From Mycobacterium heckeshornense (GTDB lineage Bacteria > Actinomycetota > Actinomycetes > Mycobacteriales > Mycobacteriaceae), in the NCBI RefSeq assembly GCF_016592155.1, contig NZ_AP024237.1:2976001-3040000 (forward strand): DNA of 64,000 nucleotides, written 5' to 3'. Below are positions 1,149-6,616 of this stretch, one piece after another; positions within the stretch are counted from its first letter, which is position 1; each line of letters starts with the position of its first letter. Both the position numbers and the translations under genes were made by a program. Below the pieces are notes generated by a model that was not told the origin of the DNA, did not search any database, and saw only the letters and a program-made list of their open reading frames with translations.

Positions 1149-2369
1149 TTAGGCGGCGGTGGCGCGGTGGTGGATGGCCGGGTCGTAGGGGTTGTGGTCG
1201 TGCCAGCAGCGCCACAAGATGCGACACCAGCGGGCGCCCAGGCCACGCAGGGCACGATGGTGTGGTTGGCCGGCGGCGCGGGCGTGTTGGTAGATGTCGG
1301 CCGACCAGAGGTCTTCACGGACGGCGACGAACATCCACCAGTCGATGGCGTGCCGCATCCGCCGGTTGGCGGCGTAGCGGAAGCGAACCTGACGTGTGCG
1401 CCCGGACACCTTGGTGACCGGAGCCAAGCCGGTCTCTGCCAACAATGACGGCGCCGAAGGAAAACGACTGCGCTCCTCACCCATTTCGGAGATCAACACG
1501 GCGGCGGTGACCGGTCCGATGCCGGGGAAACTGGTGAAGATCGGGGTGTCCGGGTGCGCCTCAAGCAGTTCGCCCAGTCGTTTGTCATGGGCTCGCAAAT
1601 GGGTGTTGAGTAGAGCCAGTTGTTCGGTGAATGCTTTGGCCGCCAACGCTTTGCCAGCAACGGTGCCGTCGCTCGCCGATAGCAGATGCGGCTGCATCCG
1701 GGCGACAAGTGTCTCGGGTTTGTGCCGGCCACTGTAGCCGTGCCGGGACGTGAACGCCCCCATCCGCGCAGCGGTGATCCGGCCCGCCTGCACGGGAGTG
1801 GGATAGCTGCGGATGAAGGACAGGGTGATGTCCCGGTCCAGTGCAGAAAACAGGTGCAACGGGCACGGATGATAGGCATCCAAGATTGACCGCAGTCGAT
1901 TCTCGGTGTCCACCTGCATATCCAGGATGCGTTGACGATCGCGGCTCACTGCGGTCAGCTCCGCTAGAAGCGGCGACGGAACGGCCAACGGCCGCCACTG
2001 GGCATACTGGTGACGCAACGTATCGGCCAACACATAGGCATCGAATTCGTCGGACTTGGCGGCCGCCATCCGATAGCGTTCGCGTGCTCGCGCCGAGATT
2101 TTCGGTGACACGCAATAAATTTCGGCATCGCAGTGGTGCTGGAGATATTCGACCAGTAGCCCTTCGGCCCGCTCGATCGCGATCCGGACCGCACCGGTGA
2201 ACGAAGCAATCAACCCGACCAGGACGGCCAGACCATCGACGGTGTGAGCGACCTTGCGACTGAGCAGCTGCTGGCCGGTGCCATCCAGCACACACAGGTG
2301 ATGGAAGCGCCCACCCCAGTCGATCCCACACCAGAAGCTGTTCGGCCGTTGCAGAGTACTCTGATTCAT
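1149..2369 (-). CDS. IS110-family transposase (DEDD recombinase)
   Basis: The protein has 406 residues, normal for the family. The N-terminal RuvC-like DEDD domain shows D17 (GIDWGG), E66 (AIERAEG) and D107/D110 (KSDEFDAY). The C-terminal Transposase_20 domain carries FPGIGPVTAAVLISE and the serine nucleophile candidate S322 in TKVSGRTRQ. IS110 enzymes work as RNA-guided recombinases through a bridge (seek) RNA made from the element end. The ATG at 2369 is preceded by a small hairpin CCTTTC/GAAAGG. Amino-acid sequence is identical to the copy at 11550-12770, indicating recent transposition. Confidence 0.95.
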   Translation of the reverse strand: MNQSTLQRPNSFWCGIDWGGRFHHLCVLDGTGQQLLSRKVAHTVDGLAVLVGLIASFTGAVRIAIERAEGLLVEYLQHHCDAEIYCVSPKISARARERYRMAAAKSDEFDAYVLADTLRHQYAQWRPLAVPSPLLAELTAVSRDRQRILDMQVDTENRLRSILDAYHPCPLHLFSALDRDITLSFIRSYPTPVQAGRITAARMGAFTSRHGYSGRHKPETLVARMQPHLLSASDGTVAGKALAAKAFTEQLALLNTHLRAHDKRLGELLEAHPDTPIFTSFPGIGPVTAAVLISEMGEERSRFPSAPSLLAETGLAPVTKVSGRTRQVRFRYAANRRMRHAIDWWMFVAVREDLWSADIYQHARAAGQPHHRALRGLGARWCRILWRCWHDHNPYDPAIHHRATAA

Positions 2370-2615: not shown

Positions 2616-2751
2616 GGTTTGGATCACGGTATCGGGGAAGATCGAGCGGATCGCATCAGGCAAGCCGGTCAGCCCGTCGCAGCAGGCGATGAGGATGTCG
2701 CGTACTCCGCGGTTGCGCAGGTCGATGATGACCTTCTGCCAAAACCGTGCG
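2616..2751 (-). pseudogene. IS256 transposase fragment (middle part, ISa)
   Basis: The minus strand reads RFWQKVIIDLRNRGVRD, then ILIACCDGLTGLPDAI and SIFPDTVIQT, the conserved central part of IS256-family transposases (CDGLxGLPDAI motif). It is bounded on one side by the recombinase cassette, which separates it from DSEG at 5928, and on the other by IS110 copy 1, which separates it from CVVH at 1062. Confidence 0.85.
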
Positions 2752-2756
2752 AAAGC

Positions 2757-2767
2757 GCACGGGTTCG
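2757..2767 (+). repeat. Cassette terminal inverted repeat, left
   Basis: GCACGGGTTCG lies 5 bases inside the left boundary of the recombinase cassette. It pairs with CGAACCTGTGC at 5906-5916 with one mismatch. It is a likely recombinase or accessory-protein binding site. Confidence 0.5.
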
Positions 2768-2798
2768 CGCGAAGGTGTGCGAGGTGGCGCCTGAAGTA

Positions 2799-4409
2799 TC
2801 ACGAGTTCGGCAGACGGGCGGTGTCAACGTGGTCTGCGAGGTAGGCGACGACAGCTTCGTGGTGCATGCCGTAGGCAGCGGCGACGAGTTTCGCGTCGAC
2901 CGTGCCGACGAGGTCTACCAGCCGTGTCGAGCGCAGGATCCGGGGCTGGATGCCGACCGCGCGCAGGGTGTTCTTGATGTAGCCGTCGGAGGCCGGCGCC
3001 CGGGTGGCTTTGGTCTGCATGGTGACCAACAGGTGGGAATTGTTGCCGCCCAGCACCTTCCGGTGGTCGAGGCAGCGATGCAGTGCGGTCCAGGTCCACG
3101 GGTCCAATGGGGTGGGTTGTGGTCGGCGACCCAGCCGGATCCGGCGGCGGTTGTTGTCGATGTCCGCATCGGTGAGGTGCTGCAGTTCTTGTGTGGTGGC
3201 GCCGTGCAGCAGGGCGGCCAGCCCGACGAACGCCTCGTGCGGGTGCACCTCGGGGTCTGTGCTCCACCGCTGGAACAGTTCGCGTTGCCGGTCGACAGGC
3301 AGCGTCGGGCCGCGGAATGCCATGGTCTGCGGCGCAGTCAAGCCTTTCGTGGGGTTGATGAGCATTAGCCGGCGGCGCAGACCGTAGCGGCAGAACTGGC
3401 GCAGCCCGGTCAGGTAGAAGGCACGCCGGCTGGGATGAGCGTGCAGGAAGGCTTCGATGTCGCCGACCTCAATGGTGGCCCAGTCAGTTTTGCCGCGCGC
3501 CATGGACAAGAACTGAGCGAAGTCACGCACGGCCCCAAGCCGGGCCTCGAGCGTGGGATGCCCGCGCGGGTGGGTGCCGGTGCGGCGGGCACGATCGCGG
3601 CTGGCGACCAGGTGCTCGGCAAACCCGGCCACCGCCTGGCGCAGGGGTGGGGGCACCGCGTCGATACGGGATTGGCGGCGGGTGGCGGCGCGGCGTTCCT
3701 CGCGATCGGTCGGTAACGCCAGTTGACGGGCGGTGAGGAAGTCCTCCAGGGCCCGCGCGAGCGGAACGTCAGTGGCCACGGATTCCAGCAGGGCCTGCGG
3801 ATGCACCGGGTGGTTGTCGGCCAATCGTGTGCCGAGCCGGGTCAGCATGGCGCAGGCGCGGTCGGGATGGTGGCGTCCGATGAGATAGGCGGCGAAGTCG
3901 CCGAGCCAGTCGGGTGGATTCTCGAGTGTCGCCGCAAGATTAGCCGCTCGGACTGGGATTCGATGCGGCGAGCGGGCCCAACATCTTTGGCACCGTCCCG
4001 CCCCGGTCAGTCGAGTGACCCGTCCGCAGTCGACACAGGCCGCATCCGGATTCGGTGGCCGGCCCGGATGTGAGCAGGAGCCACACCAGCCGGTGGTGGG
4101 TCGCAGGATCCGGCGTTTTCCGCAGCGTGGACACTCGGCTCGGTTGGCGTCCAAGCGTTGCCGCCGAGCGCACTGCCCGCAGAGGTCGCGGTCGACGAAC
4201 AGCACTGGCGCATTGCAGATCCGGCAGGTGCGCGAACAGCGCGCGCAGCATCCGGTGTCCGGCCCCAGAACCCGCAACACACCGCAGCGCGGGCAGCGGT
4301 GTTTGATCGGTGCGTGACACCGCGCCCAGTGGCAACGAGCACAAAGGTCACGCTCTGGTTTGCCGACCGCGCGACCACAGCACCGGCAGTCCCGGACCCG
4401 GCGGGTCAT
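2799..4409 (-). CDS. Zinc-ribbon protein with degenerate tyrosine-recombinase domain
   Basis: The protein has 536 residues from the ATG at 4409, one base after the XRE stop. Residues ~8-140 contain about ten CxxC pairs (CRCC, CARC, CPRC, CGQC, CGSC, CVDC, CQRC), enough for four or five zinc ribbons. Residues ~235-520 resemble a phage-integrase fold: a SAM-like segment (TLEARLGAVRDFAQFLSMA) and a catalytic-like domain. The box I arginine is replaced (HGATTQELQHL), HxxR is reduced to RSTR, and a tyrosine remains in VVAYLADHVD. It is therefore probably inactive in strand cleavage and may act as a DNA-binding or target-choice partner of the recombinase at 4731-5783. That role is an inference. Confidence 0.65.
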   Translation of the reverse strand: MTRRVRDCRCCGRAVGKPERDLCARCHWARCHAPIKHRCPRCGVLRVLGPDTGCCARCSRTCRICNAPVLFVDRDLCGQCARRQRLDANRAECPRCGKRRILRPTTGWCGSCSHPGRPPNPDAACVDCGRVTRLTGAGRCQRCWARSPHRIPVRAANLAATLENPPDWLGDFAAYLIGRHHPDRACAMLTRLGTRLADNHPVHPQALLESVATDVPLARALEDFLTARQLALPTDREERRAATRRQSRIDAVPPPLRQAVAGFAEHLVASRDRARRTGTHPRGHPTLEARLGAVRDFAQFLSMARGKTDWATIEVGDIEAFLHAHPSRRAFYLTGLRQFCRYGLRRRLMLINPTKGLTAPQTMAFRGPTLPVDRQRELFQRWSTDPEVHPHEAFVGLAALLHGATTQELQHLTDADIDNNRRRIRLGRRPQPTPLDPWTWTALHRCLDHRKVLGGNNSHLLVTMQTKATRAPASDGYIKNTLRAVGIQPRILRSTRLVDLVGTVDAKLVAAAYGMHHEAVVAYLADHVDTARLPNS

Positions 4410-4410
4410 G

Positions 4411-4734
4411 CTAGATCGGCGGCATCGACCGGCCCCGCCGCGACGCTGGCGCGTCGTTGACCGCGACCTTGGCCGGCTTCGGTGAAATCTGTTGTGTGAC
4501 AGGGGTGGTATCGATGTCAAACAGGTCATTGGGCGAGCATTCCAGTGCGGTGCACAACGCGATCAAGGTGGACAGCTTGATCTGACTGGGCTGTTTGGTG
4601 AACAACGCCGACACCGACGCCGAAGACAGCTCCAATCCAGCCTTCTCCGCCAGCAGCCGTTGCAGTTGGGCGCCGGTCCACACCTCCCGCTGGGCGGCGG
4701 CCATCCGAAGTTTCCACCTGATCTGCATACTCAC
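4411..4734 (-). CDS. XRE/Cro-family helix-turn-helix regulator
   Basis: The protein has 107 residues. Residues ~8-70 form a Cro/C1-type HTH: TGAQLQRLLAEKAGLELSSA with recognition helix SVSALFTKQPSQIKLSTL, then CTALECSPNDLFDI, the usual C-terminal end of such domains. The tail (residues ~75-107) is basic and disordered. Its start overlaps the recombinase stop by 4 bases (ATGA), implying translational coupling. It probably represses cassette transcription or serves as an accessory DNA-binding factor; which one cannot be told from sequence. Confidence 0.75.
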   Translation of the reverse strand: MSMQIRWKLRMAAAQREVWTGAQLQRLLAEKAGLELSSASVSALFTKQPSQIKLSTLIALCTALECSPNDLFDIDTTPVTQQISPKPAKVAVNDAPASRRGRSMPPI

Positions 4735-5783
4735 TCCTGCCCGGTCAGTTCGCTCAGCGTCGCCGAGATCGCACGCTGATAGGCGTCTTCGATGAAGGTC
4801 TCCGACGGGCGCACATACCGCATGGTCGACGCGACCGTCCAGTGTCCTAAAAGCTGTTGAATGGCAACGAGATCCACGCCTCGCTCATAGTTGTGGGTCG
4901 CACAGGCACGGCGCATCCCATGCGGGCTGAACCACTCACCTTCAGGCCGGCCTTCCACTCTCATCAAATGCCGCAACCGGTTGCGGATGGTGGCCGCGGC
5001 CATTGGGCCGCCGGACTCATCACACAGCAACACCGGACTGTCCGGGAACCGGCCGCGCACATCGTCGAGATACCAGCGCAACACCAGATCCAGCCCGTCT
5101 AACATCGGCACCCAACGCGGCCGCGGCCCGGAGCCCTTGGCGCCCTTACCGAACCGCACATGCAGCTTGCCGAACGTGCCGCGCCCAAAATGCACATCCG
5201 AGCAGTCGAGCATCACCACTTCTTCCGACCGCAGCCCGGCGTGATACAGCGTGCGGAACAGCGCATAATCCCGCGCGGCCGGCGCATACTTGCGGGCAGT
5301 CGCAATCCGACCCTTCAGGAACTCGAAGAACGCGCCCACCCGCTCCGCCGTCGGCGGCGCCTCCGTGCTCGGCGAGTCGTCGCTGACATGGCGGGCGGCG
5401 TTGAACTCGTCCAATGGACAGGCCAGCCGGACCCCGAACGCCGCCTCGATCTCCGCGGCCTTGCGGACCTCAAGGAACCGGTGAAAGCCCTTGAACACCT
5501 GCAGATAATTGCGTCGCGTCGACACCGCCCGACCCGAACTGGCGAGCTCGCCCACCACCCGGTCGACGTCCTCAGCGGTCACCTCCCACGCCGGGCGCCC
5601 CAGCGCCACCAGCATCCGCTCCAACACACCGACGTCGTTGGTGATCGTCGATTCGGCGAACCCGCGCGCGGTCCACGACGCCACGAACGCCTCCACGCAT
5701 TCGGCCTGAAACCGCTGCGGATCTCGCGTCTCCACGACCGCCGCGACCTCGCCGGTGATCACCCGCAGCCGCCCGTCTCCCAC
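4731..5783 (-). CDS. Tyrosine recombinase of the mobile cassette
   Basis: The protein has 350 residues from the GTG at 5783, chosen because GAGGAAGG lies just upstream; a GTG at 5801 would add six residues. The N-terminal core-binding domain is at ~25-110 and the catalytic domain at ~145-340. All key residues are visible: R185 (AGLRSEEV), K213 (FGKGAKG), H288 and R291 (HGMRRACATH), H314 (LLGHW) and nucleophile Y323 (MRYVRP). It is thus probably the active enzyme of the cassette. It is the first gene of a three-gene run with the XRE regulator (4-base overlap) and the zinc-ribbon pseudo-recombinase. Confidence 0.85.
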   Translation of the reverse strand: MGDGRLRVITGEVAAVVETRDPQRFQAECVEAFVASWTARGFAESTITNDVGVLERMLVALGRPAWEVTAEDVDRVVGELASSGRAVSTRRNYLQVFKGFHRFLEVRKAAEIEAAFGVRLACPLDEFNAARHVSDDSPSTEAPPTAERVGAFFEFLKGRIATARKYAPAARDYALFRTLYHAGLRSEEVVMLDCSDVHFGRGTFGKLHVRFGKGAKGSGPRPRWVPMLDGLDLVLRWYLDDVRGRFPDSPVLLCDESGGPMAAATIRNRLRHLMRVEGRPEGEWFSPHGMRRACATHNYERGVDLVAIQQLLGHWTVASTMRYVRPSETFIEDAYQRAISATLSELTGQE

Positions 5784-5905
5784 CGCGTACCTTCCTCGCA
5801 CCTAGGGTTTCAAGGCAGTACCTTAACTCGCGGGCTTACACCTGGAACATCAGCGACACGCCCGTAGACCGGAAAACCTCAGGCAGCAGCGCCAATCCGG
5901 GGAAA

Positions 5906-5916
5906 CGAACCTGTGC
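5906..5916 (-). repeat. Cassette terminal inverted repeat, right
   Basis: CGAACCTGTGC on the plus strand is the complement, with one mismatch, of GCACGGGTTCG at 2757-2767. It lies 11 bases inside the right boundary of the cassette. The sequence at 5835-5864 inside the cassette also resembles the outer end of ISa at 6670-6695 (both contain CTTACAC and GACACGCCCG); the meaning is unclear. Confidence 0.5.
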
Positions 5917-5927
5917 TCGTTCCATAT

Positions 5928-6616
5928 CCCTCGCTGTCTTGGATCCAGCAGCCCAGGGCGTGTTTACGCCCGTCGAGGTCCACGCCGATGGCCAGATAGG
6001 CCACCTTGGTGCCCACCACCCCGTTGTCGGCGATGCGCAGCCGCAGCCCGTCGATATACAGGATCGGGTAGACCTCATCGAGTGGGCGCGATTGCCAGGC
6101 CTTGATCTCATCGACCACCACCTCGGTGATATTGGAGATCAATTCTCGTGACACCTTGGCTCCGTACACCTCGGCCAGATGCGCCTCGATATCGCGGGTG
6201 GTCATGCCGCGCGAATACAGCGACAGCACCACCGAATTGATGTTGCCCAGCCGGCGCGCCCTTTTGGGCACGATCACCGGCTCAAAAGTGCCGTTGCGGT
6301 CGCGCGGCACCACGATATCCACCGGGCCGTTGACCGTGGTCACCGTCTTCGGTGAAGACCCATTGCGAGAATTGCCCGACCCGCGGCCGGCCGGGTCACC
6401 GGATTCATACCCCAAATGGTGGGTCATTTCGGTCTGCAAGGCCCGCTCGAGCACCGCCTTGGTCAACTCGGTCAGCAAACCGTCCGCCCCGTCGATCGGG
6501 GTCCCCGATTTCACCGCGTCCTTGATCAGCGAATCCAGGGTCTCGGCCGAAAACGTCTCCGCCAGCCGGCGAGCCGCCGACATCTCCTTGCCCGCCGACT
6601 CCATGAGCTTCGTCAC
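5928..6616 (-). pseudogene. IS256 transposase fragment (N-terminal half, ISa)
   Basis: It starts at the ATG at 6616 and reads through IS256 hallmarks: HHLGYESGDPAGRGSGNSRN, PVDIVVPRDRNGTFEPVIV, AHLAEVYGAKVS, PLDEVYPILYIDGLRLR and LGCWIQDSEG. Reading then enters the recombinase cassette and stops at 5879. It is the first of three blocks of the ISa transposase; the next is 2616-2751. Confidence 0.9.

Follow-up and report, generated by a model that had tools for sequence, protein, structure and literature searches.

What is the 3.18-kb unit that interrupts an IS256-family transposase gene in Mycobacterium heckeshornense, and why does it lie exactly there? The unit occupies positions 2752 to 5927 of a 64,000-nucleotide stretch of this genome (contig NZ_AP024237.1, positions 2,976,001 to 3,040,000 of the forward strand; hereafter the window), and a sequence-only reading of the window had taken it for a compact mobile cassette in which an active tyrosine recombinase and an inactive one with zinc ribbons divide the labour. 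Our analysis makes it probable that this is a site-specific transposon based on a tyrosine recombinase, that it attaches at a stretch conserved among IS256-family transposase genes and that its three genes have the roles proposed below. Its exact ends, a fixed target codon, a conserved gene trio, several copies and two variants at one base position can be read directly from the sequences compared.

The genome, a single contig of 4,957,188 bases, contains four listed empty places of the same IS256 type. The two that were read (L007 and L008) run ...CCAAAACCGTGCG|CCCTCGCTGTC... across the insertion point, and the window differs from them by exactly 3,176 bp at the bar, with no target duplication. 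The empty-site comparison that the sequence-only reading had proposed thus yields an exact junction and upholds its view of a 3.18-kb unit interrupting an IS256 gene:

2752..5927, minus strand: the whole element, 3,176 bp, an exact insertion by the empty sites L007/L008 and five complete copies.
5928..6616, minus strand: 5' part of the transposase gene of the interrupted IS256-family copy (PF00872, 206.9 bits, profile positions 13-207 of 379).
2628..2751, minus strand: 3' piece of the transposase gene of the interrupted IS256-family copy, by flank match.

What the sequence-only reading had missed is that five complete copies (99.94-100% identical) and one partial copy of 1,990 bp (L006) are present in this genome. 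The window copy and L003 are identical and intact; gene 3 carries a single-base frameshift in three of the five complete copies (L002, L004, L005), two of them having the same frameshift. The IS256 copy that hosts the element in the window is itself truncated further on, as are L007 and L008, and an IS110-family transposase gene (window 1149-2369) directly adjoins it. In L003 and L004, and also in L010 on a plasmid of Rhodococcus rhodochrous, the 5' and 3' flanks come from different IS256 genes, as if the replicon had been rearranged by recombination among element copies.

The most telling fact, absent from the sequence-only reading, is that the insertion falls at a fixed codon in transposase genes. 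In the window's clade (clade A) the 3' flank is an IS256-family transposase gene in all 23 loci examined that have a 3' flank, the window included, and the match starts at residue 229 or 231 in 20 of them; in L051, L054 and L057 it starts later, yet the junction DNA reads A-K-[FYI]-W. The 5' flank matches IS256 in 17 loci, with the best match ending at residue 219-230 in 13; it ends earlier in L012, L014 and L057, where the junction bases still fit, and in L004 it maps to a second site in IS256 (...FPKAHW). A matching 3' half for this second position was looked for and not found; the position would presumably hold a stretch such as TGGCGCAAGATCTGG, which resembles the main site GGCGCCAAGTTCTGG. 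The break point splits the Gly/Ser codon of E-[GS]^-[AS]-[KR]-[FYI]-W after its second base. Excluded from the clade A counts are contigs that contain nothing but the element (L022, L052, L053, L087, L132), the partial copy in this genome (L006), repeat retrievals of one and the same place (such as L023, L024, L027, L036, L088, L092, L110, L112 and L131) and the plasmid hits H7, H11/H16 and H15.

At 85% identity the host genes fall into 13 distinct IS256 backgrounds, at 95% into 17 (ungapped comparison over 150 bases). On two plasmids, of Mycobacterium intracellulare (L011) and Mycobacterium avium (L015), the flanks are 100% identical over 1,200 bp on each side, with the same IS256 copy and plasmid backbone, while the elements between them are 83.3% identical and the switch falls at the element ends; this points to either independent use of, or replacement at, one base position. 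In the database protein P0111, moreover, a gene 3 relative runs into a Mutator transposase domain at profile position 207, which is also where the window's own 5' transposase piece stops.

Which proteins could bring about so exact an insertion? The three minus-strand genes, with the 4-base overlap and 1-base gap as first described, are laid out as follows:

4731..5801, minus strand: gene 1, a tyrosine recombinase of 356 amino acids with the residues R-K-H-R-H-Y present (PF00589, Phage_integrase, E 3e-22; alignment with XerA and relatives).
4411..4734, minus strand: gene 2, a 107-amino-acid protein with a Cro/C1-type helix-turn-helix (HTH; family HTH_26, PF13443, E 3.9e-9), overlapping gene 1 by 4 bases.
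2799..4409, minus strand: gene 3, a 536-amino-acid zinc-ribbon pseudo-recombinase, 1 base from gene 2.
3981..4388, minus strand: zinc-ribbon array of gene 3, residues 8-143, with 20 invariant cysteines (10 CxxC), by alignments and by DZR_2 in relatives.
2802..3554, minus strand: integrase-like region of gene 3, residues 286-536, a core-binding and a degenerate catalytic domain (box I arginine absent, R493 and Y523 kept).

Tyrosine recombinases share the catalytic residues R, K, H, R, H and Y. In gene 1 the full set lies in place against XerA, inside the Phage_integrase domain, and is kept in 15 of 15 related rows; gene 1 is thereby a tyrosine recombinase with all catalytic residues, as had been read from the sequence. 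Gene 2 matches HTH_26, and DUF6262, which we take to be the Pfam family of TnpC-type proteins, is not among its Pfam matches. In more distant recombinase genes related to gene 1 (L096-L101, L104 and L107, 27-37% identity in the aligned stretch), a gene 2 relative at 30-34% identity comes next in most cases; the distant relatives L096-L101 and L163-L172 lie outside the target counts given here.

Gene 3 carries 20 cysteines in exactly ten CxxC pairs, where about ten had been counted before; they do not vary in any of three alignments, of 26, 61 and 55 full-length rows, and all 20 are kept across three clades. The Pfam family DZR_2 (double zinc ribbon) is matched by the relatives P0054, P0057, P0099 and P0111, of which only P0054 exceeds the curated cut-off, and relatives also match the model of a SAM-like integrase N-domain; the 536-amino-acid protein itself gave no Pfam match even at E 10. 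The position of the box I arginine, noted early on as lacking, holds Thr or Ser in 16 of 16 rows, and in the same 16 rows boxes II and III lack the histidine and the box II arginine R493 and the tyrosine Y523 are kept. The catalytic set, whose completeness in the third protein would have spoken against the sequence-only reading, is therefore incomplete in every row. The predicted structure has a mean predicted local distance difference test score (pLDDT) of 74.6, with residues 462-536 below 50, and the eight Foldseek matches at E <= 0.001 are all tyrosine recombinases, led by Int of Tn1549 (8.7e-5), at low template modelling (TM) scores of 0.17-0.33 and with the C-terminal residues poorly modelled. 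A PDB profile search with the gene 3 alignment is led by zinc regions of PriA and finds XerD weakly (E 0.23).

Gene 3 is matched by 440 database proteins at E <= 0.001 (120 listed) and, weak matches included, in 13 of 198 genomes of the genus, 26 of 401 of the family and 21 of 394 of the class; the 47 matching plasmid records are mostly from Streptomyces (20), Rhodococcus (17) and Mycobacterium (5). A search of genome contigs with the single gene 3 protein found no relative, the alignment-based search eight, and none were found in viral contigs. The sequence-only reading had proposed to look for co-occurrence of the trio, and all three genes are indeed recognisable, some of them broken, in each of the 35 loci with both ends found (two of which, L053 and L132, are the same contig); because loci were fetched via gene 3 or element DNA, this result bears on genes 1 and 2. 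Multiple copies, empty sites and the constancy of the trio support the view of a compact mobile unit that pairs one active-type with one probably inactive recombinase.

The ends of the element give a further indication of how it may move:

5906..5927, minus strand: 5' end, on the gene 1 side, with the first six bases ATATGG and the arm AACGAGCACAGGTTCG.
2752..2767, minus strand: 3' end arm CGAACCCGTGCGCTTT.
2756..2781, no strand assigned: 3'-end palindrome, in which the arm core recurs in inverted orientation; complementarity between its arms is 79%.

The 11-bp end repeat described earlier, matching at 10 of 11 positions, is confirmed and makes up the outer portion of a more extensive recombination site. 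When the ends are joined they read as an inverted 16-bp arm, six bases and another inverted 16-bp arm, and in 14 of 14 elements tested (of the 35) the dyad is best centred on the midpoint of the element's first six bases, with 10-14 of 16 matches as against averages of 3.9-5.2 at other offsets. On this identical centre in the elements tested we reject chance end repeats or decay products. The 3'-end palindrome is perfect in some relatives, such as L009, the copy on plasmid pRHL1 of Rhodococcus jostii RHA1, and L011. In the tabulated loci the first hexamer is specific to the clade and not derived from the target (ATATGG or TTTTGG; ATCTGG or AACTGG; GATTGG), the first three bases being the free evidence as the end-search pattern fixed TGG. 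Both ends were located by sequence patterns, so that conservation inside these is partly imposed, and their positions rest on the empty site for clade A and on flank alignments for the clades in istB described below. One contig of 3,181 bases (L053) is the element from first to last base.

The centred 6-bp spacer and the fixed codon, as seen in the dyad and the junctions, would fit a Tn554-type site-specific insertion. For our element we infer an exchange of one defined strand, that is a strand-biased one, and a circular intermediate. Gene 1 would carry out the strand exchange. Gene 3, as a catalytically degraded recombinase with zinc ribbons, is most likely a DNA-binding partner in the complex that contributes to target reading, and gene 2 would be a regulator or an accessory DNA-binding protein. 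The joined ends would present two inverted 16-bp arms around a 6-bp spacer, with the hexamer staying at the gene 1 end in the insertions seen, and the target would be opened after the second base of the Gly/Ser codon. Such an insertion would interrupt the host insertion sequence and no gene of the cell, would find many similar sites and would allow the element to travel on insertion sequences and plasmids. A division of labour between catalysis and target recognition, as the sequence-only reading envisaged, remains a hypothesis.

Do relatives of the element share this habit? In the sister clades B and C, with a gene 3 of about 45-51% identity, 17 of 21 loci examined (L133 from Rhodococcus is of this type) lie antisense in istB, the gene of the IS21-family helper ATPase, at the codons for T-S-N-x-x-F-x^x-W (13 placed by the 3' flank and 14 by the 5' flank, two of the latter weakly at E 0.006 and 0.012). 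The other four (L020, L117, L119 and L139) lie in a PLD-like gene whose PLDc_2 match (E 2.8e-5) is below Pfam's cut-off. The elements of L020, L117 and L119 are 97.3-99.7% identical and their flanks 65-86% identical over the nearest 200 bases; near-identical elements in diverged flanks make the PLD-like gene a repeated target too. In the Streptomyces copies the istB 5' flank is clear and no 3' end was found near gene 3, beyond which, also in view of the annotation of L137, they may carry cargo. Excluded from these counts are L121, L128, L129 and L141, for which no end was found, and the more distant L130, and many of the 47 matching plasmid records lie outside the locus set. A location of L130 in a DDE motif (DNGxEF) was suggested by eye and found no Pfam support. 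On the Streptomyces plasmid of L141 (about 1981-2500) a related trio adjoins a broken AAA-ATPase piece (AAA_19, E 1.3e-5) downstream of a Mu-type transposase gene.

A larger type of trio, matched by 261 plasmid records, has a third protein of 794-807 amino acids with 16 CxxC pairs that aligns with gene 3 from end to end (hhalign, probability 98.8, E 4.4e-17, 24% identity) and has Trp in the column of Y523. Among the 261 plasmid records and 12 genomes with matches, 11 were fetched. Six of the eight readable 5' ends lie in tyrosine recombinase genes, 3-4 codons past the catalytic tyrosine, with PF00589 clear in four of these targets and at E 0.0012 and 0.099 in two; of the remaining two, L175 lies in a frame without a Pfam match, which by eye had been taken for IS3-type, and L162 does not lie in a recombinase gene. 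The 5' ends of L145 and L173 are unreadable. For L138 the reading covers the 3' side, which continues into gene 1 of an istB-type element, just past its tyrosine. The stretch L138:1-3660 holds three nested mobile elements, the larger trio in gene 1 of an istB-type element inside istB. Some of the host recombinase genes are part of Tn554-like pairs with a DUF6262 gene near by (L146).

These targets lead us to a wider proposal, which we make tentatively and with somewhat less than even confidence. The zinc-ribbon trios would form an actinobacterial superfamily of hyperparasites that home mainly into codons for conserved motifs of other mobile elements' recombination genes, with each lineage re-aimed and the pseudo-recombinase as the exchangeable target reader, and would inactivate the mobile elements they enter. 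The targets would be the IS256 transposase, IstB of IS21 and the catalytic-tyrosine motif of tyrosine recombinases (in L138 that of a sister trio); the exceptions are the PLD-like gene (4 of 21 loci in clades B and C) and the larger element L162.

Several points weigh against the roles that we assign to the genes. Transposition, the circle and DNA binding are all proposed on the basis of sequence comparison. The retention of R493 and Y523 in gene 3 may reflect a residual catalytic role, and target choice could reside in gene 1, whose N-terminal halves are 56-67% identical between clades (A-B 67%, A-C 57%) and 82% within clade A, the corresponding values for the gene 3 zinc ribbons being 45-51% and 71%. 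The istB target is common to clades B and C, which in both proteins are nevertheless as far apart from each other as from clade A, so that divergence does not single out gene 3. The second IS256 position of L004 and the PLD-like gene of clade C argue that a DNA motif is read and not a gene family. Remnants of gene 3 with neither gene 1 nor gene 2 beside them in the retrieved sequence occur in L019, L063/L082, L094, L099 and L102, and the mismatched flanks of L003, L004 and L010 are best explained by recombination between element copies.

Could the element then be a Tn554-type transposon whose second recombinase has decayed, the active recombinase alone picking the target and the zinc-ribbon protein being architectural only? 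Several recombinase-fold proteins, a chosen target and a 6-bp spacer make up a common plan (PMC10214605), actinobacterial Tn554-like elements are described (PMC3414803), and the N-terminal half of gene 1 diverges with clade. We nevertheless think this unlikely, as gene 2 matches HTH_26 in place of DUF6262, the gene order recombinase-HTH-large protein differs, and the retention of all 20 cysteines in three clades, together with the whole-protein alignment to the 794-807-residue relatives, is unlike decay. An integrase-type cut-and-paste element that uses ordinary two-strand exchange and met IS256 by happenstance would equally possess a tyrosine recombinase and inverted arms compatible with a circle. 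Unequal spacers should then sometimes leave target-derived bases at the gene 1 end, whereas in the tabulated loci each clade keeps its own hexamer, and the unit is filled by three genes, none of them for transfer; we judge this explanation quite improbable. That the element is an inherited passenger, inserted once into an ancestral IS256 and spread along with it, is barely credible even though IS256 elements are self-mobile and L001 and L002 sit in one IS256 type, given the 13-17 backgrounds, near-identical elements in two IS256 types within the genome (L001, L005), four empty copies of the same type and the two variants at one base position in L011 and L015.

What surprises in the site-specific transposon that we favour is its targeting habit. 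The usual insertion sites of site-specific elements are tRNA genes or individual conserved genes of the host. Here, entire lineages seem to have settled on conserved codons in the transposition genes of other mobile elements, and such genes are dispensable, abundant and shared widely. If this is true, the elements would act as a natural brake on insertion sequences, and they would offer a set of related recombination systems with different target sequences, where exchanging a single gene could test what makes the target change. They would also explain the zinc-ribbon genes annotated as 'integrase' or 'hypothetical protein' beside HTH and recombinase genes on actinobacterial plasmids. In the open-access PMC literature we found no description of homing into IS256, istB or recombinase codons, save for one case among the RIT elements.

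How does the element compare with known systems? The sequence-only reading knew of no transposon of this composition. Within the reach of our searches this holds for the zinc-ribbon/HTH trio, but an inactive recombinase partner has precedents in Tfp of the SE elements, which is without the RHRY motif (PMC10214605), and in GinC of the GInt islands, which is without the first arginine (PMC5385486).

RIT elements resemble ours in having three adjacent genes, and in two strains of Acidithiobacillus ferrooxidans one type interrupts a Tn6049-like transposon within its transposase gene (PMC3414803). All three of their genes encode recombinases with a possible catalytic motif, and the excerpts describe no repeated use of one transposase codon; in our element, gene 2 encodes an HTH protein and gene 3 is without the motif. 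The same source (Van Houdt et al. 2012) describes actinobacterial Tn554-like elements on plasmids and chromosomes of Mycobacterium, Rhodococcus and Streptomyces, in which a short recombinase stands beside a long one of 611-828 amino acids, often with a small third protein; its section 10 gives neither ends nor target genes, and the word zinc is absent from its main text. Its row for pREL1 lists a short recombinase and a TnpC-like protein with no annotated long partner. One relative of our element is present on plasmid pREL1, where a search run without a positive control found no DUF6262 match, and this row, or the loosely defined actinobacterial Tn554-like group, may overlap the element family.

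SE elements (strand-biased circularizing integrative elements) share with ours active recombinases beside an RHRY-less protein of recombinase fold, a 6-bp spacer between inverted end motifs and few chosen sites (PMC10214605). They differ in their four genes intA-tfp-intB-srap with two active recombinases, compared by description with three genes and one active-type recombinase here, in a synteny block confined to Gammaproteobacteria with a median of 15.7 kb, and in a spacer that moves to the other end on insertion, whereas the hexamer of our element stays at the gene 1 end. GInt islands, in which GinC resembles gene 3 in the loss of the first arginine, have a ginABCD operon with cargo and an ABC-transporter gene as target, and zinc is not mentioned in the main text of PMC5385486. 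Tn554, finally, is like our element a transposon of the tyrosine-recombinase type; both have several genes for recombination, are specific for a target and leave a footprint or spacer of 6 bp (PMC10214605). Tn554 has two RHRY recombinases and TnpC, whereas our element has a single active-type recombinase in gene 1, an HTH_26 protein where a TnpC-type protein would be expected and a zinc-ribbon pseudo-recombinase, and unlike Tn554 it targets a transposase gene. Taken together, the element works like the Tn554, SE and GInt elements, but by gene content it belongs neither to the Tn554 family nor, going by their descriptions, to the SE or RIT elements.

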